64,000 nucleotides of DNA from Sipunculus nudus (Eukaryota; Annelida; Sipuncula; Golfingiida; Sipunculidae): NCBI GenBank assembly GCA_026874595.1, contig CM049314.1, positions 72,494,300 through 72,558,299 of the forward strand, read 5' to 3'. The translations under genes were made by a program, and so were the position numbers. The notes below the pieces were generated by a model, which searched no databases, was not told the DNA's origin, and saw only the letters and a program-made list of their open reading frames with translations. Below are positions 22,424 to 64,000 of this stretch, piece by piece. The stretch's first letter is position 1; every line of letters begins with the position of its first letter.

Positions 22424-22521
22424 ATGGCGGCAAGCCGACCCCCAGCATTTCCAGTTCCCATCCAGAACGTACAGCAGTATGTCATGAGTGACTGGAAAAA
22501 TACTATGATAAAACTGCTGTC
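22424..22521 (+). pseudogene. Upstream duplicate of exon 1 with a 1-nt deletion
   Basis: Begins with ATGGCGGCAAGC like the downstream copy and ends at the same ctgtc|gtaagt donor, but is 98 rather than 99 bp. The lost base after 'SDW' shifts the frame so that a TAA is created across the donor. It cannot supply the N-terminus if spliced to exon 2. It could still act as a non-coding leader if its promoter works. Confidence 0.85.
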
Positions 22522-23857: not shown

Positions 23858-24150
23858 ACCAGGCGCGATCAAAGGTGTCAACATAAACACAGTGCGGTCA
23901 TCCCCCGGCCACAACATGTCAATCAGGAGATATCCTGACTGTTGTAGCCCAAAAAATGTAATACATGTACCCGCTGGCTGAAACACCGCCTGTTAGGCTT
24001 AAAGTCGGACCTCTGGTCACGCGGCCTTGTTATAGTAAACAGACTCACTTGGACCGTGTTTACCAACACGCAGACCCATAACAAGGTGTATAACAGCCAT
24101 ATACGAGGTACTGAGATTGTATGTTGGGGTACTTTTGCTGGGAAACTTTT
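23858..24150. repeat. About 290-bp segment present in copy A only
   Basis: Sequence between 'aaacagtggacc' and 'aattaaagc' that is missing from the otherwise aligned copy B at about 27688. It is GC-richer than its surroundings. No terminal inverted repeats or target duplication were seen, so insertion in A and deletion in B cannot be told apart. Confidence 0.6.
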
Positions 24151-24219
24151 AATTAAAGCAAAACTGGACTGATAGTGTTAAAGAATAGGCATAATATTGC
24201 TCCTGATTATGTCCCTTTA

Positions 24220-24425
24220 CGGAAGAGTTCATGCCATGTTTGTAGATTTTTCTAAAGATTTTGATAGCATAAATCATAACATTATAATGTCTGTTCTATA
24301 AATATATGGCGTACCATTAAACTTTTAAAATCTCTGAACTCTATATACTCTTAATTACAGTCTTTTTTTTAACAGAAACAGGCGTATCTGGGATAAGCAA
24401 GGCTGTATATAATACGCCAGATGCA
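24220..24425 (+). pseudogene. Reverse transcriptase remnant inside copy A
   Basis: One frame gives 'MFVDFSKDFDSINHNIIMSV' then a stop and 'IYGVPLNF'. About 110 bp later 'WDKQGC' appears. These match the order of the palm motif and the 'QGC' motif of non-LTR reverse transcriptases. It is heavily broken. The same remnant lies in copy B, so it was there before the duplication. Confidence 0.72.
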
Positions 24426-25599
24426 GCTTATTATTTTTTTTCAATGAATGAATAGCTCACATGATAATGCGGTATGATATAGCCTTAACCGAAAAAATAC
24501 CAAATTTCTATCTTCATGTGTGAAAATGTTTTATTAGGCTACAATGTTGGGAAAAATACAGAACTATATAACAACGTCAGGTCTAATGCCATCGATACGC
24601 GATGAGTGTAAATCTAAACGAACTAGGGTGGTATTAAAAACAGGAGGACTATTATTAAACGTTAAAAAATGAAAATTCATGCTTATATTGAAGCACTGAC
24701 CTAGTATGCATATTTTGGAACAATTTTCCCAAGCTTTATTAAATGGTTAAACTCTCATAAACATCAAGCAAATCAGACAGAACAAAGCGTTTAAGGATAT
24801 ATGGTCATCATGACAAATAATTAATATATTGTTCGTTTTTTTTTTCATAAAATGGTAAAATGGTTGTACTAGTGTTGACATACTATAGTGAACAATGGGA
24901 ATAGGGTGATTGGTGCGACTTAGAGCGAGTTCAAACAAAAGTTTGTTATTTTTGTTTTCTGAAACTGAGTTCATTTGCACCTACCTGCAGTTGTAGGAAA
25001 TGTTGAATATTAAAAGTTAAAATACACTGATAAATTGTATGTTTTATAATTATCACTTCAAATGCAATTTATACTGATGCTGATTGACAAGAATCTCATA
25101 TATATTATAAATTATTACTGTATGATCCATTTCGTAATATTAATGTAATATTATAATATTATTTGATCAGTTCTCTGTGATTAACATAATTTACTTTCTC
25201 ATACAAAGTTTCATTCTTAAGGGTCATGTATGCTATTCTCTAATGCTAAATGTCTTGGGTTTGATTAAGTGAACAAGTAATGAGCGGTAGCAAATGTATT
25301 ACGAATAAACCTCTATCGCCTATCATTCTTGTTGTACCTTAAGCGCCGCTAAGGAATGTGTTAAGGCTATTAAGAATTTAAGAATTTGTGTTTGTATCGT
25401 TTGCATTTCAAAAATTCAAAATACATCGTTTGCCCTCATACTCCTGCAAGCATTTGACACTGCCGTCTCGCATGTCTTGATTAAAGTGGGAACAACTACA
25501 TAGGTGGCGCTGGCATCGTCTATTTGTCGTCTATTTGTAAATAAACTTTTTTTAGGGGGGATGTAGTTAAGCAAAAATTTTTTTTCCATTTATATATAT

Positions 25600-26208
25600 G
25601 TTTTTATTTTACGTTTATTTAGATTATATTATGTGTAAAGGTACCACCATACTACTAGTCGATTAGAAAGCTATAAATAAAAAATTATTGTCGTCAGGCG
25701 TATGGTGTTTACGTACATCTGGTAAGCTGTTGAAACAATGAAATAATTCAACGTCCGCAACGTAAGACGTCTAGCCTCACTGAACACCTGACAGTTTTTG
25801 GCCTGGCCAGATCTAATGCAAGAACCACATATATGAGGCTATTGTTTCTAGTACACATCGACTAAGTAGAAATTACATTGATCATTGATTAAGTGTTTTT
25901 TATACCATAGCTACGTAGTAAACAGTGGCAGTATATAGCGTTAGACAACATTTCCTTGGGCTAAAGACACTTGCCACATGAACTTAAGGACACCTTACTA
26001 CATCAATCTTATCTTGCCACGCAAGCCTCTTTGCCAATTAGAGCCTGACCCATCTGACATACAAGCAATTACCTGAATGATTTACATATGGCTGTGTCTC
26101 AGGCAAAATTTTATCAGAAGGTTGTCTTTGAAGTGTGTTGAATCATAGCCCACTGCGAAGGTCCATATTGCTGCACATTCCGTGACTCATTAGGCTACAG
26201 ATTCCATC
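25600..26208 (+). promoter_or_regulatory. Conserved 5' flank of the intact gene, putative promoter
   Basis: This flank is retained in order upstream of all three exon 1 copies (2870-3840, 21855-22423 and here). No convincing TATA box at the right distance from the ATG was found. The start site and the length of the 5' UTR cannot be placed from sequence alone. Confidence 0.35.
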
Positions 26209-39779
<13,571 letters not shown>

Positions 39780-43480: not shown

Positions 43481-44128
43481 CAGCTGAGCGTCGAGATCCG
43501 TGGTTACGTAGTTCATAAAATTGTCATTTATTAGAAAAATCGAATATAATTAGGAGAGACATAATAAAACTGGTCATAATAAAACTGATCTTAATAAAAG
43601 TGTAATTTATTAACTTTGCCATATGTCATATCCATAATTTGGATATGCGATGCTTGAAATCCGGATTTTAGTGTGTACACAAAAGGGCACCCCCCTCCCC
43701 CCACCAAATGAGCATTGGCAAGGAGACGCGTATCGGCAATGTTCGGAGCGCATTAAACGTTTCATGTGCCACTCACAATTTAGGTAGGGCCAGTACAGAC
43801 AGACGGACCACTGTTTTAGATTTCCCTACTATGACGTGGAAATAGAAAAACATATCATAAAAAGTATATTTCTGCTTGTTATATTGTGCTCCCTTGGTTC
43901 ATTAAACATGAACTTTTAACAGATCAGCAAATGATAGTCCTACATCTCATATATCTTCATGTTTTCATTGTGGGGAACAAATTTACTTATCACATCCAAT
44001 GTGCTCTACATATATCTGCGTTATTGTTTACTTTATTTTCATAGAATCAACCGCATTTGTTAATATTCTTCATCTGTATTCGGGATATCGTTAAGCTATA
44101 TACGAGCAAATAAAAATATTTTTATTCC
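43481..44128. other. Spacer before the 76-bp satellite
   Basis: AT-rich sequence with no recognised gene or element. Confidence 0.5.
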
Positions 44129-44326
44129 TGCTAGGTGGCGCATGCCGACTTTCAGTCTGTAATCACACCAAGCCGCGTAGAATTAATGTGATGTCGTTTA
44201 TTCCTGCTAGGTGGCGCATGCTGACTTTCAGTCTGTAATCACACCAGGCCGCGTAGATTTAATGTGATGTCGTTTATTCCTGCTAGGTGGCGCATGCTGA
44301 CTTTCAGTCTGTAATCACACCAAGCC
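44124..44326 (+). repeat. 76-bp satellite, left flank of the giant element
   Basis: Two full units and a partial third containing 'ttcctgctaggtggcgcatg', at a period of exactly 76 bp (44129, 44205, 44281). The array stops abruptly inside a unit at 'caccaagcc' (44318-44326), where the inserted element begins. Confidence 0.95.
44318..44326 (+). repeat. 9-bp target-site duplication, left copy
   Basis: 'caccaagcc', identical to 63695-63703. Removing the element and one copy restores a continuous 76-bp satellite unit. Confidence 0.88.
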
Positions 44327-44386
44327 ACCGAGTTCAAGCTATCCGGACGTTGCGCCATCCGGAGGTAACATATCCGGACCCAGTTG
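44327..44386 (+). repeat. Left terminal inverted repeat with TCCGGA motifs
   Basis: Three TCCGGA boxes (44342-44380 area) separated by about 15-20 bp. The outer one lies in 'tcaagctatccggacg', shared with the right end. These repeated boxes could be transposase-binding sites (inference). Confidence 0.8.
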
Positions 44387-44620
44387 GTTAACACAATATC
44401 CACCAGAGGTCGCTACCGCTATGCTTACCAACAGGATGGACGTCGCAGGCAATGCCCATACACTTTTGTGTGGTCCAACTGCACCAGAGACTGTGTCCTG
44501 ATGTGACTTGATGATGGAAGTATGACGTCACATGAAGTATTCATAAACGCCGACGTTAATAAAAAGAAAAAAAAGATATTTCAACAATAAATTAATTAAA
44601 GAGCGTTTTCCGTGATATAT
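44387..44620. other. Unique left subterminal segment of the element
   Basis: About 230 bp between the terminal repeat and the first monomers, containing 'gacgtcacatgaagtattca'. No open frame. The right end has an equivalent short AT-rich segment at about 63520-63590. Confidence 0.6.
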
Positions 44621-47600
44621 TGCGCTGGCCAAATGGAGGGTTTGTAACCTCTTATCTCAGAGGCTGTGACAACAAGCCATGCATGTCAAGCCCCTTTGAA
44701 TGGTTTGGATTATCTATAAAAATTATTTGCATGGGTTTCTCATTGGGTTCAAGGACCAAAACCGGGTTTTTGTAGCTATACGTCTATATTCCTATATGGT
44801 GTAAGGCCAAATTTAATGAAGGGTTTAAGTATCTCTTATCCCAGAGCCTGTGACAGCAAGACTTGGAGCGGTATGAGTTTTCTCTGCGTTGGTGTCTGAC
44901 AGGGACCAAGGGCCCGAACCACGGTTCAAAGTGGGGCTTTACCACAATCTTTATTCATTATATTGGCCAACCTGAGGCGAACGGGAATTCAAAATGGGAC
45001 TATGCCTTTATATTAAATCATTATTTTGGCCAAATTGAGGGTTTTTAATCTCTAATCACAAAGTCTGTGACAACAAGCCATGCATACCCACCATCTAAAA
45101 AAATAAATTAACATTGGTGTCTGACCGGGTTCAGGGGCCCAAACGACGGTTCCAAGTGTGGCTATACCTCTCTCTCAATTCAGTAACATGGTGATATCTC
45201 TAATCTAAGAGAATGTCACAATTACAGTTGCATGTCACCTAACTGGGCGGGGATCGAACTATTCAGAACCAAATTTGCAATGTGCCCTGACCGGGATCAG
45301 GGGCCCAAATCAGGGTTCGAAATGGGGCTGTTCCTCTATTATAATTCATTCTATTGGCCAACCTGAGGGTGTTTATCTCCAACTTCAGAGTATGTGACAG
45401 TTAGAGATGCATGTTACCTGGCTTGGTGGGGCCCTAACTGTCTGCAACCAAAATTGCAATGGCCTCTGATCGGGATAAGGGACCCAAAAAAGGGTTAGAA
45501 ATGGGGCTATACTTCTATTTAAACTCATTTTGTTGTTCAACCTGAGGGCGTTTATCTTTAATCTCGGAGTCTTTGACGGTTAAAGATGCATATGTCACCT
45601 GACTGGACGGGACTCCAACTGTCTACGAGCAAATTTGCAATGGGCTCTGACCGATTTCAGGGGCCCAAATGAGGGTTCGAAATGGGGCTATTCTTCTATC
45701 TAAACTCATTTTGTTGGCCAACCTGAGGGTGTTTATCTCTAATCTCAAAATCTGTGACAGTAAGAGATGTATGTCGTCTGACTGAGATCGGTTCCAGCTG
45801 TCTACAAGCAAATTTTCTCTGGGCCCTGACCGGGTTGAAAAGCCCAAATCAGGGTTCAAAATGTGGCTATACCTTTTTCTTAACTCATTATATTGGCCTA
45901 CCTAAGGATGTTTATTTCTAACCTCAGAGTCTGTGACAGTTAGAGATGCATGTCGCCTGACTGGGAGAGGTTCCAGCTGTCTACAAGCAAATTTTCTCTG
46001 GGCCCTGACCGGGTTGAAAAGCCCAAATCAGGGTTCAAAATGTGTCTATACCTCTATCTTAACTCATTATATTGGCCTACCTGAGGATGTTTCTCTAATC
46101 TCAGAGACTGTGACAGTTAGAGATGCATGTCGTCTGACTGGGAGAGATTCCAGCTGTGTACAAGCAAATTTGCACTGGGCCCTGACCGGGTTTAGGGGCC
46201 CAAATCAGGGTTAGAAATGGGGTAAAACCTCTATCCTAACTCATTAAATTGGCCAAACCGAGGGTGTTTATCTCTAATCTCAGAGTCTGTGACAGTTAGA
46301 GATAATTGTAACCTGGGTGGGCTGGGCTCTAACTATCTGCAAGCGAAATTGCAATTTGCCCTGACCGGGTTCAGGGGCCAAAATCAGGGTACGAAATTGG
46401 TTTTTATACTCTATCTAAAATCATTTTGTTGGCCAACCTGAGGCTGTCTATCTCTAATCCCAGAGTCTGTGACAGTTAGAGATGTATGCCAACTGACTGG
46501 GCGGGGCTCTAACTGTGCTCAAGCAAATTTGCAATGGGCTCTGACCGGGTTGAAGGGTCCGAATCAGGGCTCAAATGCGGCTATACCTCTATCTCAACTC
46601 ATTATATTGGCCTACCTGAGGATGTTTATCTCTAATCTCAGAGTCTGTGACAGTAAGAGATGCATGTTGCCTGACCGGGCTCGGTTTCATCTGACTGTTT
46701 GGAAATTTGCAATGGGCCCTGACCGGGTTCAGGGGTCCAAATCAGGTTTCGAAATGGGGCTATTCTTCTATCTAAACTCATTTTGTTGGCCAACCTGAGG
46801 GTGTTTATCTCTAATCTCAGAATCTGTGACAGTAAGAGATGTATATCGTCCGATTGAGATCGGTTCCAGCTGTCTATAAGCAAATTTTTACTGGACCTTC
46901 ACCCGGTTGAAAAGCCCAAATCAGGGTCCAAATGTGGCTATACCTCTTTCTTAACTCATTATATTGGCCTACCTGAGGATGTTTATCTCTAATCTCAGAG
47001 TCTGTGACAGTTAGAGATGCATGTCGCCTGACTGGGAGAGGTTCCAGCTGTCTACAAGCAAATTTTCTCTGGGCCCTGACCGGGTTGAAAAGCCCAAATC
47101 AGGGTTCAAAATGTGGCTATACCTCTATCTTAACTCATTATATTGGCCTACCTGAGGATGTTTATCTCTAATCTCAGAGACTGTGACAGTGAGAGATGCA
47201 TGTCGCCTGACTGGGAGAGATTCCAGCTGTCTACAAGCAAATTTGCACTGGGCCCTGACCGGGTTTAGGGGCCCAAATCAGGGTTAGAAATGGGGTAAAA
47301 CTTCTATCCTAACTCATTAAATTGGCCAAACAGAGGGTGTTTATCTCTAATCTCAGAGTCTGTGACAGTTAGAGATAATTGTAACCTGGATGGGCTGGGC
47401 TCTAACTATCTGCAAGCAAAATTGCGATTTGCCCTGACCGGGTTCAGGGGCAAAAATCAGGGTACGAAATTGGTTTTTATACTCTATCTAGATAAACTCA
47501 TTTTGTTGGCCAACCTGAGGGTGTCTATCTCTAATCCCAGAGTCTGTGACAGTTAGAGATGTATGCCAACTGTCTGGGCGGGGCTCTAACTGTGCTCAAG

Positions 47601-49545
47601 CAAATTTGCAATGGGCTCTGACCGGGTTGAAGGGTCCGAATCAGGGCTCAAAATGCGGCTATACCTCTTTCTTAACTCATTATATAGGCCTACCTGAGGA
47701 TGTTTATTTCTAATCTCAGAGTCTGTGACAGTTAGAGATGCATGTCGCCTGACTGGGAGAGGTTCCAGCTGTCTACAAGCAAATTTTCTCTGGGCCCTAA
47801 CCGGGTTGAAAAGCCCAAATCAGGGTTCAAAATGTGTCTATACCTCTATCTTAACTCATTATATTGGCCTACCTGAGGATGTTTCTCTAATCTCAGAGAC
47901 TGTGACAGTTAGAGATGCATGTCGTCTGACTGGGAGAGATTCCAGCTGTGTACAAGCAAATTTGCACTGGGCCCTGACCGGGTTTAGGGGCCCCTATCAG
48001 GGTTAGAAATGGGGTAAAACCTCTATCCTAACTCATTAAATTGGCCAAACCGAGGGTGTTTATCTCTAATCTCAGAGTCTGTGACAGTTAGAGATAATTG
48101 TAACCTGGGTGGGCTGGGCTCTAACTATCTGCAAGCGAAATTGCAATTTGCCCTGACCGGGTTCAGGGGCAAAAATCAGGGTACGAAATAGGTTTTTATA
48201 CTCTATCTAAACTCATTTTGTTGGCCAACCTGAGGGTGTCTATCTCTAATCCCAGAGTCTGTGACAGTTAGAGATGTATGCCAACTGATTGGGCGGGGCT
48301 CTAACTGTGCTCAAGCAAATTTGCAATGGGCTCTGACCGGGTTGAAGAGTCCGAATCATGGCTCAAAATGCGGCTATACCTCTATCTCAACTCATTATAT
48401 TGGCCTACCTGAGGATGTTTATCTCTAATCTCAGAGTCTGTGACAGTAAGAGATGCATGTTGCCTGACTGGGCTCGGTTTCATCTGACTGTTTGGAAATT
48501 TGCAATGGGCCCTGACCGGGTTCAGGGGTCCAAATCAGATTTCGAAATGGGGCTATTCTTCTATCTAAACTCATTTTGTTGGCCAACCTGAGGGTGTTTA
48601 TCTCTAATCTCAGAGTCTGTGACAGTTAGAGATGCATGTCGCCTGACTGGGCACGGTTTCATCTGACTGTTTGGAAATTTGCAATGGGCCCTGACGGCTA
48701 TCAGGGATCCAAATCAGGGTTCGAAATGGGGCTATTCTTCTATCTATACTCCTTTTGTTATCCAACCATGAGGTTGCTTATCTCTAATATCAGAGTCTGT
48801 GACAGTTAAAGGTGCGTGTCGTCTGACTGACAGTGGTTCAAGCTGTCTACAAGCAAATTTGCTCTGGGCCCTCATCGAGTTCAGGGCCAAATCAGGGTTC
48901 AAAATGTGGCTATACCTCTATCTTAACTCATTATATTGGCCTACCTGAGGCTGTTTATCTCTAATCTCAGAGTCTGTGACAGTTAGAGATGCATGTCGCC
49001 TGACTGGGAGAGGTTTCAGCTGTTTACAAGCAAATTTGCACTGGGCCCTGACCGGGGTCTTGGACCCAAATCAGGGTTATAAATGGGGTAAAACCTCTAT
49101 CCTAACTCATTATATTGGCCAAACCGAGGGTGTTTATCTCTAATCTCAGAGTCTGTGACAGTTAGAGATAATTGTAACCTGCATGGGCTGGGCTCGAACT
49201 ATCTTCAAGCAAAATTGCAATTTGCCCTGACCGGGTTCAGGGGCCAAAATCAGGGTACGAAATTGGTTTATACCTCTATCTAAACTCATTTTGTTGGCCA
49301 ACCTGAGGGTGTCTATCTCTAATCTCAGAGTCTGAGACAGAGATGCATGTCGCCTGACTGGGAGAGGTTCCAGCTGTCTACAAGCAAATTGCACTGTGCG
49401 GGGCTCTAACTGCCCTCAAGCAAATTTGCAATGGGCTCTGACCGGGATGAAGGGCCCGAATCATGGCTCAAAATGCGGCTATACCTCTATCTCAACTCCT
49501 TATATTTGCCTGCCTGAGGATATTTAACTCTAATCTCAGAGTCTG
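44620..49545 (+). repeat. Left arm: about 27 tandem monomers of about 179 bp
   Basis: Recurring landmarks are 'ctaatctcagagtctgtgac', 'gagatgcatgtcgcctgact', 'gggccctgaccgggtt', 'aactcatt' and 'ttggccaacctgagggtgtt'. Outer monomers (44.6-45.7 kb) are the most diverged and inner ones are homogenised. About 45890-46800 recurs at 47682-48592 (offset 1792 bp, ten monomers), and a six-monomer relation (offset about 1079) links 45740 with 46820. Open frames of 60-110 codons running through monomers repeat with the array and are not genes. Confidence 0.95.
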
Positions 49546-51847
49546 CAGCGGCGTACCTAGCCTCATTGCCGCCCGGGGCGGTCTTAGAAATTGCCGCCCC
49601 TCTAACAAAACATTACAAAACTGGATAACATATTGAAACATATCGTTTCAAATGTCCTTGTTACAGGCTCGTATTTAACAACAACGCAATTATATGAATT
49701 CACTCGCAGGGAATTCTTCCGCCACATATTAAATAGCAGACATCTTTTTGCTACTGTAAATCAAAAGATCGCTCGAAGCTTAAACAAGTATATTTCATTA
49801 TGAAGTGAACAGAAAGGAATAAAACGAATAAATTGAAACTATTAACAGATTATACTGCAGGATACACATATAATGGGAAATTGATCTTTCATTATTCACG
49901 TAAACACGATTCATGATTGCTTTAAACTCAACTTGGGAAAAAACTTTATTTGGTGATTGTTATTTCATTCTCGACGCATACAAATACTTTGTCACATCTA
50001 TGATTCCACCTGTTGTTATCGCATATGACAGCAGGTACACCTAATAGAGCTATTGAGATATGCATGGTACTGCTGCACGCAAGTCATTTAGTCTTTACTA
50101 AAACAGCGTAATTCATGAGTTAAGCATATATATGTAGGCAGGGCATGTTTATCTTTTTTCACAAAAAAAATACAATGTTGGGATAAACTGACTTTGTTTA
50201 ATTTAAATATCCTCAAAGTTAAAACATACTTTAATTCAAGGCTACATCAAAATCATTTTAGAATTATAATGATTATGCAGTTTGCGAGGTTTTATTTATA
50301 AACGTATGACTATTTGTTATTCAATAAAGTATTTAAATGAATTTCAAGTAATGATATAATTTAAATATATGTTATAATTTAATTTCAAATGATTTGTCAC
50401 AATATACAACAATTGTCTGTAGGTAGTGGATAATGAAACTGTTAATAACAGAATTAACAGTACAGGTAAATATATCTTTAATTTAAGTTTTGAACTCTAA
50501 AAGTTAAAACTGATACTTGATACGTATATTGAACATGTGGCTAAGTGGCCAGGGGGATTCATCCCGCCCGGAGAGTTTTAATAGAATTATATTTTAAAGT
50601 TAAAATAATTCCTATATAGGTCTGGGTGTTTATTGGGTTTTTTTTTTCACGTTACATAAAAGATCATGCAGGTCATATTGGTTAATCAAAAGACACAGGC
50701 ATTTAGGTAGTACTCATTATTACACGATGATGTAAACGCCTTTATTTTAACGAGACTGATGTTAAAGTATGCAGAATCATGGAAAAAGGGCATTTCAGGT
50801 TGTTTCAGGCTGTTTAAATATCCTGGAATTTCGGGAATTCAAGCGTTCAAGAATGGAAATTCTTAATACTTTCCAAGGAAAGAGCAACACAATTCGTCAA
50901 AATAATTTCACAGAATATGTACGACAGACACCCCACCCCCACTACCTGGTGCCATTGGTCTTCTGGTAGGGTTTTTCCCTGGTGATTATCAGATGCTGCT
51001 AGAGATTTCTGTAAACGACGACCGCCCTGAAATGCAGGCTTTTTGCATGATTGGTCAGTTTATCGATGGCGTTCTGACATTGCAAGACCACAGATCTAAC
51101 AAAGAATAACTACAGATATATTTATTGCCTTTGATTTAGAGATCGTCCGCAAATAATTTCGTTGGTTCCACCGCCAAATTTTTAATCTCTGAAATTCTTG
51201 AAAAGGGACAAAAAAGGCCAAATTTGAACTTTTTGAGGAACCCCTTCTGCCACTGATTATACTAAATCCCAGAAATGCCGCGCCCCCCCCCCCCCCCCTC
51301 CAAAAAAAAAGGGTGCAGAACGTTCGCTAATAAATTGGTAGGTTCCACTGTCCAGTTTATAATCCCTGGAAAACTTGAACATGGGACAAAAAGGCCAAAT
51401 TTGTACTTTTTGTGGATCTCCTTAAGCCACTGATTAAACTAAATTCCAGAAATGCCGCCCCTAAAAATGTGCAAATCGTTCGCTAATCATTTGGTAGGTT
51501 TAAAAGTCCAGTTTATAATCCCTGGTATACTTGAACATTGGACCAAAAAGTTCAAATTTGTACTTTTTGTGGAACTCCTTATGCCACTGGTTAAACTTAA
51601 TCCCAGAAATGCCGCCCTCAAAAATGTGCAAATTGTTCGCTTGTCATTTGATAGGTTCCACTGTCCAGTTTATAATCCCAGGATAGTTGAACATGGGACA
51701 AAAAGATCGAATTTGTACTTTTTTTGTGGAACTACTTGTGCCACTCATTATACTAATTCCCCGAAATGCCGCCCCCCAAAATGTGCCGCCCGGGGCGGAC
51801 CGCCCCTGCCGCCCCCCCCCCCCCCCCCCCCCTTAAGTACGCCACTG
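49546..51847. mobile_element. Nested non-autonomous hAT-like element (2302 bp)
   Basis: Inserted into a left-arm monomer. It is flanked by the exact 8-bp duplication 'agagtctg' (49538-49545 and 51848-51855). Terminal inverted repeats: left 'cagcggcgtacctag', right complement 'cagtggcgtacttaa' (12 of 15 match). Each end also has a 'tgccgcccggggcgg' GC palindrome close to the tip. Internal poly-C tracts (51285-51298 and 51812-51832) and about four tandem units of about 157 bp lie near the right end. No transposase reading frame is visible, so it depends on another element. The 8-bp duplication and CAG...CTG tips are the hAT hallmarks. Confidence 0.88.
51180..51800 (+). repeat. About 157-bp tandem repeats inside the hAT-like element
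   Basis: The unit with 'ccagaaatgccgcc', 'gttcgctaat', 'ggtaggtt' and 'ccagtttataatccctgg' recurs about four times (ccaga at 51446 and 51603), with variable poly-C length. Confidence 0.85.
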
Positions 51848-52008
51848 AGAGTCTGTGACAGTTAGAGATGCATGTCGCCTGACTGGGCCCGGTTTCATCT
51901 GACTGTTTGGAAATTTGCTATGGGCCCTGACCGGGTTCAGAGGTCCAAATCTAGGCTATTCTTCTATCTAAACGCATTTTGTTGGCCAACCTGAGGGTGC
52001 TTATATAT
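51848..52008 (+). repeat. Last left-arm monomer after the hAT insertion
   Basis: Continues the monomer interrupted at 49545 and ends at 'caacctgagggtgcttat', where the unique core starts with a short TA tract. Confidence 0.9.
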
Positions 52009-52743
52009 ATATATCCGACGAAAGCAACGAGTTGTTCATCTCTGTTGAATTACTGGCCGGGGTGCTGAAATTTCCTGCTACGGTACAGATTTATTGGAAA
52101 TATTTAAAACGGAAATCGACAGTGTTAAATGTAAATATGGGAATGGATGATTCCTTCACTTGATCGTGCTGCTGTCCTAGGCTGACATATGACCTTTTTC
52201 ATAATTCTGGTTTTTTTTGTGTTATTTTGCAGGTAAAATATCCTTTTGTTAACCAATATGTATGGGCTTGAGAAACACTGACATAATTTCGCGGCATCAA
52301 ACTCTTTAAGCGGGGTGATAAAATAATGAGAAATTCTCAATCCTTGTTTTCTAAGGGAGATGCCTAAAAATCCCGGGGGGGGGGGGACTTATTACGTTAT
52401 TACGATCCATGGTGTTGTAAACTTGAAGCAGTGTTTGATCATTGCACCTATGAAAGTAGAATTGAAGGAATGAAAGTATAATTATAGGTCGGCTTATATA
52501 TGTCAATCTGCTCTTGTCTACTCTGACCATTTTTCATACAAGCCCAGTTCTGTGGCCATGGTGATGACAGTTAAATTTCTGTAATTTATTAATAATCAGA
52601 ATTATAGACTGATTACATTTCTGAATTTACTATGAAATATTATATGTCTTAAACTGGTTTATAATTAACTTATCCTTGAAATATATTAAATAACTTATTT
52701 TTAAATGTTATACTTCATTGTAAATTCTTTGAAAGGTGTCACA

Positions 52744-52827
<84 letters not shown>

Positions 52828-54515
52828 AAAGTTGTCCAAACTTTGATTACCCTCCAATTTCTACGAGTAGTCCTTCACCCTTGAAGAAAAAAAATTGACG
52901 TCACTGATAATACTCAAATAGTCTTTCTAAATTAGTTACATCAGGCTGTTGAGACTGTCAGATGCCAGAATGTGTCCTCTTTACCAGGGTCTAGTTTTGA
53001 AATACAGTGTCCCCTAACTGATGGACATTCAGATCTATGAAATGTATTGACTGTCCATATACTAACTATGCTTTAGCACAGTAGACCTTTATAAGGACCT
53101 GCTTGAAATGAATAACACGATTGATAGTTTTCACTGACAACTTAAGTATAGCGTTCCTCCTTAGAGGTGTTGTGTACAAGACCCCTGTACCCTCCACATC
53201 ATTCACAATTTGACCTCTGTCACCATAAGGAGAGAGGCAAGTGTCTCAGCTAAGGGTTATATCTGCACTGACTGAAATAAAGCAACGTGTGTGATAGCTG
53301 CTGTGTAGTTTTAAAATGCTTTTACTGACTGAACACAAAGAACACTTGTATGGAAAACTCCTGTTTAACTGTTCAATATATTTTAGATAATTTTATGTTG
53401 TGCAAATAGTTAACAGTGATTTCTTTAAAAATACTGCAAATATGAATGAAGTGCAAGACTGATGTATTGTTTATTTTTTTAAAGACGGACCAGATCAACA
53501 AAACCATGATGGTTGGAAGCACTTCATTTGAACAAGTATGCACTGATTACCATCAGGACGTTAACGTTATCACATAATTTGTATTCATATCCAGGGTAAG
53601 ACATGATTGCATATTATTGTATTTTGAAATGCATTCTGTCGAAGCGTGCAGACTAGGATTTATCATATAGTATTCTTTACATTATATTGTCATCAACAGT
53701 GATGAATGATTTGAAAGTTCAGTCTAGAGTATTATTTTTCCACGGACTTCCGTTTTTTTTTTTTTTTTTTGTTTCGGTTATGCCAATTAACCATTCTGAC
53801 TATAATTAAAGATTTTATAATAATAACTAATATCAAAATATTTTAGTATCTGTTTGAAACATAGTGTCATTATGGAGTGTTTTTATTATAGTAAACTTTT
53901 GATTTTTACAGATTTCCTATAATAAAAGTGTGTTATCACTATTACATTTTTTGAATGTTTATTACTGAAGGAAGGCAAAACATTAATAATCCTTACATTT
54001 TGTCATAATAATACTTTAATATTCACCAATCAACGCCACCCGTCTCCCCCCCCCCCCCCCAAACTTTTAAAAAAGGGGTTTGGCACAGACGGCCCAAGAA
54101 GTTTTACAATTAATCTGACTCTGGATATACTGGTATCAGCCATCATGCAGACATAAATCCACGAGCATTGTCTATAGGTGTTGCAAACGCATGCTATATT
54201 AGTTTTCAGTGTACCAGTAAGAAGTACTTTTATCCCACCCCCACATAATGTGTGTAGCCTGGTTCTTTATAAATGTGCATACTATAACAAGCCTGATCCC
54301 TCCCAGTCATCAAACACCTCAGATCATAGATAACTTAATCATAACTTGACAAGACGGGCCAGCCATCAGTGTGTAACTGTTATTCTCAACACATATACCC
54401 TTACTGGGAGAGGGTCAAAATGGTTACATACCAGAGCTGAGTATCAATTTGTAACACTGTCACTAACCCTCCAGCAGCACTGACCTCCCCCATTATGTTA
54501 AGAGTCAGTGTCTAG
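52009..54515. other. Unique core of the foldback element
   Basis: About 2.5 kb between the arms, with no monomer homology. It contains a (TA)n/(GT)n tract at 52751-52828, a T tract near 53755 and a C tract near 54046. The short exon-like piece at 53484-53575 (after ttttttaaag) ends in a stop and shows no recognised domain. No transposase, reverse transcriptase or host gene was identified on either strand. Confidence 0.7.
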
Positions 54516-55368
54516 TGTCATGGACCAAACTAACTGTTTAAGATGGACGATTCAGACCATTCCGAACCCTTACTGGCCCCTGAACCCGGTCAGTGCCCAT
54601 AGCAAATTGGCTAAGTGACAGATGGAACCGGGCCTAGTCAAGTGACATGCATCTCTAACTGTCACAGACTCTGATGCTAGAGAAAGACATCCTCATGCTG
54701 GTCAACAAAATGATTTAAGATAGAGGTATAACCCCATTTCGAACCCTGATTTTTTCCCCTAAAACCTGGTCAGAGCCAATTGCTAATTTGCTTGTAGACA
54801 GCTGGAACCGAGCCCAGTCAGGTGACATGCATCTTTATCTGTCACAGACTCTGAGTTTAGAGATAAATACCCTCAGGTTAGCCAATTTAATAAGTTAAGA
54901 TAGAGGTATAGCCACATTTCGGACCCTGATTTGGGCACCTGAGCCCGGTCAGGGCCCATTGCAACTTTGCTTGCAGACAGTTGAAAGCCCGCCCAGTCAG
55001 GTGACATGCATCTCATACTGTCACAGACTCTGAGTTTAGAGATAAATACCCTCAGGTTGAAAATTTAATCAGTTAAGATAGAGGTATAGCCAGATTTCGG
55101 ACCCTGATTTGGGCACCTGAGACAGTTCAGGGAAAATTGCAAATTTGCTTGCAGACAGTTGAAGGCCCGCCCAGTCAGATGATATGCATCTCATACTGTC
55201 ACAGACTCTGTGATTAGAGATAAATACCCTCAGGTTGGCCAATTTAATCAGTTAAAAGGGGGTATAGCCACATTTCGGACCCTGATTTGGGCACCGGAGC
55301 CCGGTCAGGGCCTATTGCAAATTTGCTTGCTGACAGTTGAAGGCCCGCCCAGTCAGGTGACATGCATC

Positions 55369-58206
55369 TATTACTGTCACAGACTCTGTTTTTAGAGATA
55401 AACACCCTCAGGTTGGCCAATTTAATCAGTTAAAAGGGGGTATAGCCACATTTCGGACCCTGATTTTGGGCACCTGAGCCCAGTCAGGGCCAATTGCAAC
55501 TTTGCTTGCAGACAGTTTAAGGCCCGCCCCGTCAGGTGACCTGCATCTCATACTGTCACAGACTCTGAGTTTAGAGATAAATACTCTCAGGTTCACCAAT
55601 TTAATCAGTTAAAAGGAGGTATAGCCACATTTCGGACCCTGATTTGGGCACCGGAGCCCGGTCAGGCAGAATTGCAAATTTGTTTGCAGACAGTTGAAGG
55701 CCCGCCCAGTCAGGTGACATGCATCTATTACTGTCACAGACTCTGCTTTTAGAGATAAACACCCTCAGGTTGGCCAATTTTATCAGTTAAAAGGGGGTAT
55801 AGCCACATTTCGGACCCTGATTTGGGGCACCTGAGACCAGTCAGGGCCCATTGTAACTTTGCTTGCAGACAGTTGAAGGCCCGCCCCGTCAGGTGACCTG
55901 CATCTCATACTGTCACAGACTCTGAGTTTAGAGATAAATACTCTCAGGTTCACCAATTTTATCAGTTAAGATAGAGGACTAGCCACATTTCGGACCCTGA
56001 TTTGGTCACCTGAGCCCGGTCAGGGAGAATTGCAAATTTGCTTGCTGACAGTTGAAGTCCCGTCCAGTCAGGTGACATGCATCTATATATGTCACAGACT
56101 CTGAGTTTAGAGATAAATACCCTAAGGCTGGGAAATTTTATCAGTTAAGATAGAGGTATAGCCAGATTTCGGACCCTGATTTGGGCACCTGAGCCCGGTC
56201 AGGGAGAATTGCAAATTTGCTTGCAGACAGTTGATGGCCCGCCCAGACAGGTGATATGCATCTCTAACTGTCACAGACTCTGTGATTAGAGAGAAACACC
56301 CTCAGGTCGGCCAATTTAATCAGTTAAGATAGAGGATTAACCACATTTCTTACCCTGATTTGGGCACCTGAGCCCGGTCAGGGAGAATTGCAAATTTGCT
56401 TGCTGACAGTTGAAGGCCCTCCCAGTCAGGTGACATGCATCCCTACCTGTCACAGACTCTGTGATTAGAGATTAACACCCCCAGGTAGGCCAATTTAATC
56501 AGTTAAAAGCGGGTATAGCCACATTTCGGACCCTAATTTGGGCACCTGAGCCCGGTCAGGGCCCATTGCAACTTTGCTTGCTGACAGTTGAAGGCCCGCC
56601 CAGTCAGGTGACATGCATCTCTAACTGTCACAGACTCTGTGATTAGAGATAAACACCCTCAGGTTGGCCAATTTAATCAGTTAAGATAGAGGATTAGCCA
56701 CATTTCGGACCCTGATTTGGGCACCTGAGCCCGGTCGGGGCCCATTGCAACTTTGCTTGCAGACAGTTGAAGGCCCGCCCAGTCAGGTGACATGCATCTG
56801 TAACTGTCACAGACTCTGTGGTTAGAGATAAACACCCTCAGGTTGGCCGATTTAATCAGTTAAAAGGGGGTATAGCCACATTTCGGACCCTGGTTTGGGC
56901 ACCGGAGCCCAGTCAGGTCCTATTGCAAATTTGCTTGCAGACAGTTGAAGGCCAGCCCAGTCAGGTGACATGCATCCCTAACTGTCACAGACTCTGTGAT
57001 TAGAGATAAACACCCTCAGGTTGGCCAATTTAATCAGTTAAAAGGGGGTATAGCCACATTTCGGACCCTGATTTGGGCACCGGAGCCCGGCAGGGCTTAT
57101 TGCAAATTTGCTTGCAGACAATTGAAGGCCCGCCCAGTCAGGTGACATGCATCTATTACTGTCACAGACTCTGCTTTTAGAGATAAACACCCTCAGGTTG
57201 GCCAATTTTATCAGTTAAAAGGGGGTATAGCCACATTTCGGACCCTGATTTGGGGCACCTGAGACCAGTCAGGGCCCATTGTAACTTTGCTTGCTGACAG
57301 TTGAAGGCCCGCCCCGTCAGGTGACCTGCATCTCATACTGTCACAGACTCTGAGTTTAGAGATAAATACTCTCAGGTTCACCAATTTAATCAGTTAAGAT
57401 AGGGGACTAGCCACATTTCGGACCCTGATTTGGTCACCTGAGCCCGGTCAGGGAGAATTGCAAATTTGCTTGCAGACAGTTGATGGCCCGCCCAGACAGG
57501 TGATATGCATCTCTAACTGTCACAGACTCTGTGATTAGAGAGAAACACCCTCAGGTCGGCCAATTTAATCAGTTAAGATAGAGGATTAACCACATTTCTT
57601 ACCCTGATTTGGGGCACCTGAGCCCAGTCAGGGCCCATTGTAATTTTGCTTGCAGACAGTTGAAGGCCCGCCCAGTCAGGTGACATGCATCCCTAACTGT
57701 CACAGACTCTGTGATTAGAGATAAACACCCTAAGGTTGGCCAATTTAATCAGTTAAAAGGGGGTATAGCCACATTTCGGACCCTAATTTGGGCACCTGAG
57801 CCCGGTCAGGGCCCATTGCAACTTTGCTTGCAGACAGTTGAAGGCCCGCCCAGTCAGGTGACATGCATCTCTGTCACAGACTCTGTGATTAGAGATAAAC
57901 ACCCTCAGGTTGGCCAATTTAGTCAGTTAAAAGGGGATATAGCCACATTTCGGACCCTGATTTGGGCACCTGAGCCCAGTCAGGGCCCATTGCGACTTTG
58001 CTTGCAGACAGTTGAAGGCCTGCCCAGTCAGGTGACATGCATCTCATACTGTCACAGAATCTGAGTTTAGAGGTTGGAAACTTTTATCAGTTAAGAAAGA
58101 GATAAAGCCCCATTTCGGGCCTTCATTTGGGCACCCGAGCCCGTCCAGGGAGAATTGCAAATTTGCTTGCACAGTTGAAGGCCAGCCCAGTCAGGTGACA
58201 TGCATC
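55369..58206 (-). repeat. Right-arm higher-order unit 1 (2838 bp)
   Basis: Sixteen monomers with distinctive variants (for example 'ggctgggaaattttatcag' and 'cctcccagtcag') that recur in the same order 2838 bp downstream with only scattered differences. Confidence 0.9.
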
Positions 58207-61200
58207 TGTAACTGTCACAGACTCTGTTTTTAGAGATAAACACCCTCAGGTTGGCCAATTTAATCAGTTAAAAGGGGGTATAGCCACATTTCGGACCCTG
58301 ATTTTGGGCACCTGAGCCCAGTCAGGGCCAATTGCAACTTTGCTTGCAGACAGTTTAAGGCCCGCCCCGTCAGGTGACCTGCATCTCATACTGTCACAGA
58401 CTCTGAGTTTAGAGATAAATACTCTCAGGTTCACCAATTTAATCAGTTAAAAGGAGGTATAGCCACATTTCGGACCCTGATTTGGGCACCGGAGCCCGGT
58501 CAGGCAGAATTGCAAATTTGTTTGCAGACAGTTGAAGGCCCGCCCAGTCAGGTGACATGCATCTATTACTGTCACAGACTCTGCTTTTAGAGATAAACAC
58601 CCTCAGGTTGGCCAATTTTATCAGTTAAAAGGGGGTATAGCCACATTTCGGACCCTGATTTGGGGCACCTGAGACCAGTCAGGGCCCATTGTAACTTTGC
58701 TTGCAGACAGTTGAAGGCCCGCCCCGTCAGGTGACCTGCATCTCATACTGTCACAGACTCTGAGTTTAGAGATAAATACTCTCAGGTTCACCAATTTTAT
58801 CAGTTAAGATAGAGGACTAGCCACATTTCGGACCCTGATTTGGTCACCTGAGCCCGGTCAGGGAGAATTGCAAATTTGCTTGCTGACAGTTGAAGTCCCG
58901 TCCAGTCAGGTGACATGCATCTATATATGTCACAGACTCTGAGTTTAGAGATAAATACCCTAAGGCTGGGAAATTTTATCAGTTAAGATAGAGGTATAGC
59001 CAGATTTCGGACCCTGATTTGGGCACCTGAGCCCGGTCAGGGAGAATTGCAAATTTGCTTGCAGACAGTTGATGGCCCGCCCAGACAGGTGATATGCATC
59101 TCTAACTGTCACAGACTCTGTGATTAGAGAGAAACACCCTCAGGTCGGCCAATTTAATCAGTTAAGATAGAGGATTAACCACATTTCTTACCCTGATTTG
59201 GGCACCTGAGCCCGGTCAGGGAGAATTGCAAATTTGCTTGCTGACAGTTGAAGGCCCTCCCAGTCAGGTGACATGCATCCCTACCTGTCACAGACTCTGT
59301 GATTAGAGATTAACACCCCCAGGTAGGCCAATTTAATCAGTTAAAAGCGGGTATAGCCACATTTCGGACCCTAATTTGGGCACCTGAGCCCGGTCAGGGC
59401 CCATTGCAACTTTGCTTGCTGACAGTTGAAGGCCCGCCCAGTCAGGTGACATGCATCTCTAACTGTCACAGACTCTGTGATTAGAGATAAACACCCTCAG
59501 GTTGGCCAATTTAATCAGTTAAGATAGAGGATTAGCCACATTTCGGACCCTGATTTGGGCACCTGAGCCCGGTCGGGGCCCATTGCAACTTTGCTTGCAG
59601 ACAGTTGAAGGCCCGCCCAGTCAGGTGACATGCATCTGTAACTGTCACAGACTCTGTGGTTAGAGATAAACACCCTCAGGTTGGCCGATTTAATCAGTTA
59701 AAAGGGGGTATAGCCACATTTCGGACCCTGGTTTGGGCACCGGAGCCCAGTCAGGTCCTATTGCAAATTTGCTTGCAGACAGTTGAAGGCCAGCCCAGTC
59801 AGGTGACATGCATCCCTAACTGTCACAGACTCTGTGATTAGAGATAAACACCCTCAGGTTGGCCAATTTAATCAGTTAAAAGGGGGTATAGCCACATTTC
59901 GGACCCTGATTTGGGCACCGGAGCCCGGCAGGGCTTATTGCAAATTTGCTTGCAGACAATTGAAGGTCCGCCCAGTCAGGTGACATGCATCTATTACTGT
60001 CACAGACTCTGCTTTTAGAGATAAACACCCTCAGGTTGGCCAATTTTATCAGTTAAAAGGGGGTATAGCCACATTTCGGACCCTGATTTGGGTCACCTGA
60101 GACCAGTCAGGGTCCATTGTAACTTTGCTTGCTGACAGTTGAAGGCCCGCCCCGTCAGGTGACCTGCATCTCATACTGTCACAGACTCTGAGTTTAGAGA
60201 TAAATACTCTCAGGTTCACCAATTTAATCAGTTAAGATAGGGGACTAGCCACATTTCGGACCCTGATTTGGTCACCTGAGCCCGGTCAGGGAGAATTGCA
60301 AATTTGCTTGCAGACAGTTGATGGCCCGCCCAGACAGGTGATATGCATCTCTAACTGTCACAGACTCTGTGATTAGAGAGAAACACCCTCAGGTCGGCCA
60401 ATTTAATCAGTTAAGATAGAGGATTAACCACATTTCTTACCCTGATTTGGGGCACCTGAGCCCAGTCAGGGCCCATTGTAATTTTGCTTGCAGACAGTTG
60501 AAGGCCCGCCCAGTCAGGTGACATGCATCCCTAACTGTCACAGACTCTGTGATTAGAGATAAACACCCTAAGGTTGGCCAATTTAATCAGTTAAAAGGGG
60601 GTATAGCCACATTTCGGACCCTAATTTGGGCACCTGAGCCCGGTCAGGGCCCATTGCAACTTTGCTTGCAGACAGTTGAAGGCCCGCCCAGTCAGGTGAC
60701 ATGCATCTCTGTCACAGACTCTGTGATTAGAGATAAACACCCTCAGGTTGGCCAATTTAGTCAGTTAAAAGGGGATATAGCCACATTTCGGACCCTGATT
60801 TGGGCACCGGAGCCCAGTCAGGTCCTATTGCAAATTTGCTTGCAGACAGTTGAAGGCCAGCCCAGTCAGGTGACATGCATCCCTAACTGTCACAGACTCT
60901 GTGATTAGAGATAAACACCCTCAGGTTGGCCAATTTAATCAGTTAAAAGGGGGTATAGCCACATTTCGGACCCTGATTTGGGCACCGGAGCCCGGCAGGG
61001 CTTATTGCAAATTTGCTTGCAGACAATTGAAGGTCCGCCCAGTCAGGTGACATGCATCTATTACTGTCACAGACTCTGCTTTTAGAGATAAACACCCTCA
61101 GGTTGGCCAATTTTATCAGTTAAAAGGGGGTATAGCCACATTTCGGACCCTGATTTGGGTCACCTGAGACCAGTCAGGGCCCATTGTAACTTTGCTTGCT

Positions 61201-62111
61201 GACAGTTGAAGGCCCGCCCCGTCAGGTGACCTGCATCTCATACTGTCACAGACTCTGAGTTTAGAGATAAATACTCTCAGGTTCACCAATTTAATCAGTT
61301 AAGATAGGGGACTAGCCACATTTCGGACCCTGATTTGGTCACCTGAGCCCGGTCAGGGAGAATTGCAAATTTGCTTGCAGACAGTTGATGGCCCGCCCAG
61401 ACAGGTGATATGCATCTCTAACTGTCACAGACTCTGTGATTAGAGAGAAACACCCTCAGGTCGGCCAATTTAATCAGTTAAGATAGAGGATTAACCACAT
61501 TTCTTACCCTGATTTGGGGCACCTGAGCCCAGTCAGGGCCCATTGTAATTTTGCTTGCTGACAGTTGAAGGCCCGCCCAGTCAGGTGACATGCATCCCTA
61601 ACTGTCACAGACTCTGTGATTAGAGATAAACACCCTAAGGTTGGCCAATTTAATCAGTTAAAAGGGGGTATAGCCACATTTCGGACCCTAATTTGGGCAC
61701 CTGAGCCCGGTCAGGGCCCATTGCAACTTTGCTTGCAGACAGTTGAAGGCCCGCCCAGTCAGGTGACATGCATCTCTGTCACAGACTCTGTGATTAGAGA
61801 TAAACACCCTCAGGTTGGCCAATTTAGTCAGTTAAAAGGGGATATAGCCACATTTCGGACCCTGATTTGGGCACCTGAGCCCAGTCAGGGCCCATTGCGA
61901 CTTTGCTTGCAGACAGTTGAAGGCCTGCCCAGTCAGGTGACATGCATCTCATACTGTCACAGAATCTGAGTTTAGAGGTTGGAAACTTTTATCAGTTAAG
62001 AAAGAGATAAAGCCCCATTTCGGGCCTTCATTTGGGCACCCGAGCCCGTCCAGGGAGAATTGCAAATTTGCTTGCACAGTTGAAGGCCAGCCCAGTCAGG
62101 TGACATGCATC
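58207..62111 (-). repeat. Right-arm higher-order unit 2 with an internal 1067-bp (six-monomer) duplication
   Basis: 58207-60806 repeats unit 1 at offset 2838. Then 60807-61873 repeats 59740-60806 at offset 1067, and 61874-62111 completes the unit 1 order (offset 3905). Junctions fall within the same monomer position, as expected from unequal crossover between misaligned monomers. Confidence 0.88.
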
Positions 62112-63599
62112 TGTAACTGTCACAGACTCTGTGGTTAGAGATAAACACCCTCAGGTTGGCCGATTTAATCAGTTAAAAGGGGGTAAGCCACATTTCGGAC
62201 CCTGATTTGGGCACCTGAGCCCAGTCAGGTCCTATTGCAAATTTGCTTGCAGACAGTTGAAGGCCAGCCCAGTCAGGTGACATGCATCTATTACTGTCAC
62301 AGACTCTGCTTTTAGAGATAAACACCCTCAGGTTGGCCAATTTAATCAGTTAAAAGCGGGTATAGCCACATTTCGGACCCTGATTTGGGCACCGGAGCCC
62401 AGTCAGGGCCTATTGCAAATTTGCTTGCAGACAGTTGAAGGCCAGCCCAGTCAGGTGACATGCATCCCTTACTGTCACAGACTCTGTGATTAGAGATAAA
62501 CACCCTCAGGTTGGCCAATTTAATCAGTTAAGATGGAGCTATAGCCACATTTCGGACCCTGATTTGGGCACCGGAGCCCGGTCAGGGCCTATTGCAAATT
62601 TGCTTGCTGACAGTTGAAGGCCAGCCCAGTCAGGTGACATGCATCTCTAACTGTCACAGACTCTATGTTTAGAGATAAATACCCTCAGGTTGGAAAATGT
62701 TATCAGTTAAGATAGAGGTATAGCCACATTTCGGACCCTGATTTGGACACCTGAGCCCGGTCAGGGCCCATTGCAAATTTGCTTGCAGACAGTTGAAGGC
62801 CCGCCAAGTCAGGCATCATGCATCTAAAAGTGTCACAGACTGTGATTAGAGATAAATACCCTCAGGTTGGCCAATGTAATAAGTAAAAAGGTGATTTAGC
62901 CCAATTTCGGACCCTGTTATGGGCCCCTGAGCCCGGCCAGGGCCCATTGCGAATTTGCTTGCAGACAGTTGAAGGCCCCCCTAGTCAGGCAACATGCAAC
63001 TATAACTGTCACATACTCTGTGATTAGAGATAAATACCCTCAGGTTGGCCAATGTGTAATCAGTTAAAAGGGGATTTAGCTCAATTTCGGACCCTGTTAT
63101 AGGCCCCTGAGCCCGGTCAGGGCCCATTGCAAATTTGCTTGCAGACAGTTGAAACCCAAGCAAGTGCAGGCTGGTGATTAAGGCATCTCTTAATATATTG
63201 ATCCTGGACTTGAGATTAAAGATAAAAACTCTCAAGATGACTTACATAATGAATTAAGATACAGGTATAACCGTACATATAGCCCTACTTTGAACCCCGT
63301 TTTGGGCCGGGTGCCTTTACCCCCTGAGAAACCTATGCAAAAAATGTTCATAGAAAATTTAATTTTCTCCAAATGATATACATGGCTTAATTGCTGTAAC
63401 AGACTCTGCTATAAGAGATACAATTCCTCCTCCACATGGGCAACACATTGTATGAATACAGACGCGGAGGTAAAGTTCCATTTTGAGCCCTGGTTTGAGT
63501 GCTTGAACCCGGTAAGAGACCCATTTAAATAATATTTATAATTCATATATCTTCATTATTTGTTTATGAATTTATTACAGCTGAAATACTGATGAGACG

Positions 63600-63694
63600 G
63601 CTGTCTCCGGATAGCTTGAGTCCTGATGACCTTCCGGTGACCTCCGGATGGAATTCCCTCCGGATAGCCTTCGTCCGGATAGCTTGAGCATGGT
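63600..63694 (-). repeat. Right terminal inverted repeat with TCCGGATAG motifs
   Basis: Four TCCGGA boxes (near 63608, 63643, 63658 and 63674), two of them in the longer form 'tccggatagcttgag'. The outermost matches the left terminus in inverted orientation. Confidence 0.82.
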
Positions 63695-63703
63695 CACCAA
63701 GCC
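63695..63703 (+). repeat. 9-bp target-site duplication, right copy
   Basis: 'caccaagcc'; resumes the 76-bp satellite exactly where the left flank stopped. Confidence 0.88.
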
Positions 63704-64000
63704 GCGTAGATTTAATGTGATGTCGTTTATTCCTGCTAGGTGGCGCATGCTGACTTTCAGTCTGTAATCACACCAGGCCGCGTAGATTTAATGTGATGTC
63801 GTTTATTCCTGCTAGGTGGCGCATGCTGACTTTCAGTCTGTAATCACACCAGGCCGCGTAGATTTAATGTGATGTCGTTTATTCCTGCTAGGTGGCGCAT
63901 GCTGACTTTCAGTCTGTAATCACACCAGGCCGCGTAGATTTAATGTGATGTCGTTTATTCCTGCTAGGTGGCGCATGCTGACTTTCAGTCTGTAATCACA
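63695..64000 (+). repeat. 76-bp satellite, right flank, running off the window
   Basis: Units at exactly 76-bp spacing (tgtcgtttattcc at 63721, 63797, 63873, 63949), the same orientation as on the left flank and nearly identical to each other. Confidence 0.96.

Follow-up and report, generated by a model that had tools for sequence, protein, structure and literature searches.

A giant foldback-type transposon family with satellite-like arms in the genome of Sipunculus nudus

Introduction

The foldback (FB) elements of Drosophila carry inverted arms made of tandem repeats, vary in arm length from copy to copy and are flanked by 9-bp target duplications; their repeats are short (tens of bp), and their two arms are expected to be nearly identical. 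Galileo, another element of Drosophila, is flanked by 8-bp duplications. The stretch of the Sipunculus nudus genome analyzed here, 64,000 nucleotides long (assembly GCA_026874595.1, contig CM049314.1, i.e., C9:72494300-72558299; hereafter “the window”), contains a 19,368-bp element that shows opposed tandem-repeat arms around a middle domain, a repeat number varying both between copies and between arms, and a target duplication of 9 bp (found in all 13 copies with both ends whole, with one mismatch in one of them). It is a giant foldback-type element, related in kind to FB, Tetris and Rehavkus. Unlike in FB, however, its monomers are 179 bp long and its arms are not homogenized with each other: they are only ~77% identical and their monomers belong to separate lineages (664 of 665), which makes the element foldback-type in form, but not a member of FB.

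The closest described system in form is Tetris, a foldback element of Drosophila virilis (PMC4079207; comparisons with this and the other papers cited refer to the accessible parts of their texts). Tetris is likewise non-autonomous and has inverted arms of a variable number of tandem repeats (~220 bp each), an outer flanking domain, a middle domain without apparent coding capacity, target duplications (8-10 bp) and a similarity (37 bp) between its repeats and a portion of the outer domain. It is, however, represented by three structurally complete copies, as opposed to the 13 with both ends and the duplication found here; its terminal inverted repeats (TIRs) reach 1,735 bp, whereas the left arm of one of our copies extends, by sampling, for ~29 kb; and its repeats also occur outside of the element as free satellite DNA, in arrays reaching 66 copies (PMC4079207), whereas the monomer matches listed here (150 of 222) all lie inside copies of the element. 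Rehavkus-1_TC of Tribolium, the closest in monomer length, has 164-bp satellite monomers in its inverted termini, but measures 9.5 kb and mostly holds 5 and 8 monomers in its arrays (PMC10218199); the arms described here are several times longer. The Rehavkus group shares the 9-bp duplications, but its TIRs measure 26-400 bp and its transposase contains a PHD finger (PMC6446971), whereas no coding sequence was recognized in our element. Tm1 of Meloidogyne is similar in its composite inverted ends, in the tandem-repeat number differing between the ends, in its 9-bp duplications and in its asymmetric outermost bases, and differs in having ~14-bp repeats and in that some of its members encode a putative transposase (PMC3169594). 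Galileo, of the P superfamily, also has long, internally repetitive inverted ends (PMC3573991), the repeats of which contain additional transposase binding sites (PMC4079207), but its transposase places it in a different superfamily. As complete arthropod Mutator-like elements (MULEs) measure up to 9,972 bp in the accessible part of their description (PMC13359780), the element of the window is larger than the published elements compared (Tetris, Rehavkus-1_TC and the arthropod MULEs). No arms of this size were found in the titles and abstract beginnings of the open-access literature; Repbase reports were outside the scope of this search, and an entry might already exist there.

Results

The element occupies positions 44327-63694 of the window and is flanked by an exact 9-bp duplication, CACCAAGCC (44318-44326 and 63695-63703), which confirms, to the base, the borders and the duplication proposed in a first-pass annotation of this DNA. 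When the element and one copy of the duplication are excised, the resulting 220-bp flank join shows an ungapped identity of 99.1% to a 76-bp array, and, being continuous with it, represents a same-array empty site. The insertion into a 76-bp satellite suggested by the annotation thus holds, although the host array is a short one of ~15 units, with ~206 bp (2.7 units, 44121-44326, plus strand) to the left of the element and ~950 bp to the right (63695-64000, plus strand, and 644 bp more past the end of the window). The matching inverted ends that had been noted are imperfect: the first 23 bp agree at 20 of 23 positions (manual count), and beyond these ~23-bp ends the subterminal regions (~870 bp on the left, ~540 bp on the right) share only short inverted patches of up to ~65 bp. 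Behind both inverted ends there are clusters of (T/C)ATCCGGA with a spacing of about 15-16 bp, and the general form of the family ends is ACC(G/A).G.TCAAGCTATCCGG-like. The element contains seven TCCGGA sites, every one of them within 60 bp of its left end or 130 bp of its right end; since ~4.7 would be expected by chance, it is their placement, and not their number, that stands out.

Read from left to right, the element begins with a unique terminal region (44327-44626, plus strand), which contains the 23-bp imperfect TIR and (T/C)ATCCGGA at element positions 14, 30 and 45, and continues with a subterminal region bearing degenerate monomer-like stretches (44627-45194, plus strand), the left arm (45195-49545, plus strand), a nested hAT-like transposon (49546-51847), a remnant of the left arm lying inward of this transposon (51856-52004, plus strand), a core of ~2.5 kb without recognized coding sequence (52011-54537), the right arm in the opposite orientation (about 54538-63153, minus strand), and the right subterminal (63154-63514, plus strand) and terminal regions (63515-63694, plus strand), the last with a TCCGGA cluster and the inverted end. 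The two opposed arms described by the annotation were recovered as 25 (left) and 49 (right) full monomers with a period of 179 bp, the right one containing blocks that were recently duplicated, with lags of 6, 16 and 22 monomers; the left arm, however, is broken by the nested 2.3-kb transposon, which has an 8-bp duplication of its own, AGAGTCTG (49538-49545 and 51848-51855), and which, from the duplication length and ends only, we take to be a member of the hAT superfamily. The nested transposon contains an internal tandem repeat of ~157 bp (51313-51786). It is present, whole or in part, in seven other copies of the host element, of which it may thus mark a sub-lineage, and its left junction is identical in five copies (C7, C10b, C4, C10a and the window), which indicates that the host element has moved while carrying it.

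A search of the genome (1,426,538,692 bases in 153 contigs) returned 24 matches to the left terminus, 16 of them near full length, the window's own included, and 26 to the right terminus, 14 of them at ≥96% identity. For fourteen left ends, one of which (C4:41.39M) is truncated, a partner right end was identified on the same strand, and in the 13 copies with both ends whole a 9-bp duplication was found at the same borders each time, its sequence different in every case (perfect in 12; eight of nine positions match in C8:16.9M). Chance is thereby excluded, and the first-pass annotation, which had expected further copies with such duplications and variable arm lengths, was right in this respect. 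The copies measure 4,574, 7,314, 8,066, 9,129, 10,834, 11,816, 12,415, 13,864, 18,320, 19,368, 19,730, 21,710 and 58,093 bp, a spread that arises mostly from the variable arms of ~179-bp monomers: among the 12 copies with both ends that were read whole, the left arm holds 11-57 full monomers and the right arm 0-71. The order of the parts is constant, with the core, one arm or the nested element missing in some copies; the core of the C5 copy (C5:76.16M) is gone, leaving its arms directly joined, and C8:16.9M has lost its right arm and has kept its core and right subterminal region only in part. The near-full left ends at C10:13.05M and C3:32.87M have no matching right end, the former breaking off inside the right subterminal region, and that at C9:69.2M belongs to a fragment. 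The end pattern CAAGCTATCCGGAN{3,15}ATCCGGA matched the genome 28 times, as opposed to zero for the reversed control, with 26 of these matches in known copies and two in diverged relatives; as it allows no mismatch and misses, e.g., C9:69.2M, the census of close copies is closed for intact ends only. Diverged relatives also exist at about 75-87%; one on C3 is 2,551 bp long, with a 9-bp duplication, CGTTTGAAG, and carries several monomer-like units, most of which are oriented as in the right arm, and another on C16 (C16:6.51M) has left-arm-type units.

The evolution of the arms was followed in 665 near-full monomers, taken from a set of 15 copies or part-copies, all of which share a monomer 18-mer (the 58-kb copy on C16 was left out of the set). 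The nearest neighbor of a monomer lay within the same arm type for 323 of 323 left and 341 of 342 right monomers (365/365 and 151/152 in an earlier set of 517 monomers that overlaps with this one). The monomers of the left and of the right arms form separate lineages, and the arms have hardly exchanged monomers during the life of these copies; uniformity maintained through a hairpin would predict near-identical arms. Counting from the left terminus, monomers 1-6 had their positional counterpart as the best match in 182, 136, 112, 92, 60 and 17 of the 182 ordered pairs among 14 copies, and the first three right monomers in 110, 110 and 59 of 132. Within the left arm, nearest-neighbor distances are 12-24% for the outer four monomers versus about 1-14% in the middle, and, in arm interiors generally, nearest neighbors are often 0.4-5% apart versus 9-24% for the outer four, a contrast that is weaker in short arms. 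Block duplications with a divergence of <3% were found at several lags, including those of 10, 11, 16, 17 and 22 monomers. The right arm of the window has a run of 14 monomers at lag 16 and one of 8 at lag 22, C12 one of 21 at lag 11, and C8b one of 19 at lag 10. Nearly all copies thus have the same units as their outermost monomers, whereas the interiors are homogenized copy by copy through duplication of multi-monomer blocks, a pattern that is satellite behavior with frozen edges. The separation of the monomer lineages, the fixed outer units and the homogenization of interiors within each copy are new in this analysis.

Whether long arms were themselves moved can be judged from the closest pairs of copies, which diverge at their unique ends by 0.8% at both ends (window/C10b), 0.6 and 0.8% (C1/C7) and 0.9 and 1.5% (C5/C10a). 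Despite this divergence of ~1%, arm lengths differ up to about threefold, the right arms holding 49 versus 17, 7 versus 18 and 25 versus 66 full monomers, respectively. Collinear monomers are nonetheless shared by C5 and C10a (17 left, 19 right) and by the window and C10b (20 left, 9 right). As the members of a pair occupy separate sites, each with a duplication of its own, arms of ~36 monomers (~6.4 kb) would most simply predate the separation and have been carried by transposition; that arms also grew after insertion is evident.

The largest copy (C16:19254605-19312697, 58,093 bp) is flanked on both sides by CGGTGTGAC and was read in its first ~9.6 kb, at its right end and in 13 samples. Array was found in the first stretch and in four of four samples up to 19284700, which gives a left arm of ~29 kb if the gaps between the samples are also array, and in three of three samples across about 15 kb of the right arm. 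Inward of the left arm come the hAT-like transposon and the first part of the core, then an antisense long interspersed nuclear element (LINE) nested in the core, the rest of the core and the right arm. The LINE, ~6.7 kb long (C16:19289009-19295711), is bordered on each side by a copy of the same ~80 bp of core and accounts for the open frames in the core of this copy; one of its sampled pieces matched the Pfam reverse transcriptase domain RVT_1 (E 3e-13), an endonuclease-like piece without a Pfam match was named by inspection only, and two terminal pieces gave no significant match.

The main part of the core (query 52840-54550) is present end to end in nine family copies, including the window, with only short partial matches elsewhere. 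No frame of 80 aa started by ATG, GTG or TTG exists in the core, the longest stop-to-stop frame having 87 codons, and eight of its 27 short frames, scanned against Pfam, gave only sub-cut-off matches (best E 0.019). The core looks non-coding, and, as no coding sequence was recognized in it, the copies are taken to be non-autonomous. It does not appear to be a captured known host locus either: outside of the family, it matched two partial stretches on C2 (74-75%, nothing recognized in them) and several of <85 bases. Eight candidate partner loci, whose open frames were inspected by eye only, revealed no recognizable transposase. The genome contains at least 131 matches to the MULE transposase (PF10551; 150 of 252 candidates scored), 43 of the 131 listed having a 607-residue open frame (e.g., C10:28517874), which suggests a recently active family. 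A looser end pattern, three repeats of TCCGGA, hit 49 places per strand as opposed to 23 for its reversed control; outside of the family, some of the places are TCCGGA repeats of short period that may be unrelated to it. One of these is an inverted pair on C8 (C8:3582355-3586240), in which ~110-bp ends of 15-bp TCCGGAC repeats stand 3.9 kb apart, perhaps representing another transposon family with clustered TCCGGA sites.

Outside of the element, a tandem duplication of ~3.7 kb with segments 87-99% alike lies upstream of it (window 21377-28669); no Rfam match was found in 44000-64000 and no tRNA in the 64-kb window. Ten of the 11 COX1-family matches in the assembly fall on contigs C60, C61, C62, C66, C72, C74, C75, C89 and C123, with a short one on C5; the one piece read, from C123, resembles a bacterial cbb3-type oxidase subunit, and the assembly may thus include bacterial (symbiont or contaminant) contigs.

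Discussion

We consider it highly probable that the element is a non-autonomous DNA transposon of the cut-and-paste type, built as a foldback element, with arms that evolve like satellite DNA. A transposase acting in trans, to judge from the 9-bp duplication most likely one of the Mutator/Rehavkus kind, would recognize the ~23-bp ends and the ATCCGGA clusters, and the element would have moved with both of its arms, a staggered cut of 9 bp at insertion giving rise to the duplications observed. Between or after the jumps, unequal exchange or replication slippage would duplicate or delete blocks of several to ~22 inner monomers, whereas the outermost monomers by each end stay fixed and the arms swap no monomers, a pattern that is observed and for which recombination of this kind would account. 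A hAT transposon is rejected for the element as a whole, as hAT duplications are 8 bp long and such a duplication was found only around the nested element, and a Helitron/Helentron-type carrier with central satellite repeats is ruled out by the 9-bp duplications and inverted ends, Helitrons and Helentrons having neither target duplications nor TIRs. With no transposase found, the link to FB is structural only and family membership is not established; the proposal of the first-pass annotation, a foldback element far larger than the described ones and perhaps a source of satellite DNA, was therefore right in kind and, relative to the published elements compared, in size, while its satellite-source part stays unproven, the listed monomer matches (150 of 222) all lying inside copies.

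Several observations weigh against this interpretation. No transposase gene was recognized in any copy read, nor was an autonomous copy found, and none of the 131 listed MULE matches falls inside a known copy or comes closer than 300 kb to a hit of either end pattern. Duplications of 9 bp also occur outside of Mutator. The collinear run of C1 and C7 covers only the outer six left monomers, with no right run among the 22 best listed, and the split of arm growth between the time before and the time after each insertion is only partly resolved. In the small copy C8c, the innermost four monomers are more isolated, so that there is no homogenized interior by its core, and the largest copy is represented by the stretches sampled from it.

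It could be argued that the element is an artefact of unrelated 179-bp satellite arrays having been joined head to head, as long tandem arrays misassemble readily and the 58-kb copy was only sampled. As a general explanation, however, this is refuted by 13 copies with the same ends and 9-bp duplications on 10 chromosome-scale contigs; no N occurs across the 15 copies and part-copies, one whole 7.3-kb copy with the same plan was read in a single piece, and we find an assembly join, which the first-pass annotation had named as a danger, barely credible. That an independent satellite was captured by an ordinary transposon would fit the satellite-like period and the block amplification, but seems very improbable, given that all 150 listed of the 222 monomer matches in the genome fall inside element copies (14 known ones; 18 of 44 candidate regions scored), that the diverged 2,551-bp relative with its 9-bp duplication already has monomer-like units, as C16:6.51M has left-arm-type ones, and that the left subterminal region resembles the monomers in places. 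The same search neither establishes nor excludes free satellite arrays. A more serious contender, though still an unlikely one, holds that the arms were short at insertion and reached their giant size wholly afterwards, with large arrays never having been transposed: the very recent block duplications inside single copies, the up to about threefold difference between the arms of sister copies and the run of only six left monomers shared by C1 and C7 all speak for it, whereas collinear runs of 36 and 29 monomers in two pairs at different sites speak against it, since such runs predate the separating jump unless conversion between the sites took place later.

As to the enzyme, P and Merlin are superfamilies with 8-9 bp duplications as well, and the mobilizing transposase might come from one of these or from an undescribed superfamily, with the subterminal clusters as its binding sites. 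The lack of a MULE gene near the family ends among the listed matches would agree with this, as would Galileo, a foldback form within the P superfamily (PMC3573991), but the accessible literature places most foldback elements, with exceptions, in Mutator (PMC4079207; PMC3169594), and we hold such an origin to be somewhat doubtful. By duplication length and precedent, Mutator/Rehavkus appears to be the likeliest mobilizer: the 9 bp found here fall within the 8-11 bp of Mutator-like target duplications (PMC6446971), and satellite or minisatellite repeats together with a 9-bp duplication, the feature set of Rehavkus, are both present.

Conclusions

It has long been asked whether satellite DNA can arise inside transposons and be carried by them. 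For Tetris, Dias et al. suggested that transposition may have been disrupted by larger arrays (PMC4079207); here, arms of ~6 kb appear to have been carried through jumps with perfect duplications, and arrays several-fold longer are present in copies with perfect duplications. The evidence for the movement of whole arrays reaches about 6 kb of arms, not >10 kb, and it is only tentatively, as a possibility less likely than not, that we propose a transposition-competent mobile satellite, in which whole arrays (~44 kb of monomers, by sampling, in the 58-kb element) were moved, their edges frozen and their interiors homogenized arm by arm. If true, this would be a vehicle dispersing satellite DNA along chromosomes and the largest foldback element in the literature found. 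As the outer monomers are common to the copies and every insertion founds an array of its own, the family constitutes a natural replicate experiment, and such replicate arrays can inform us on how satellites grow, homogenize and keep their edges.

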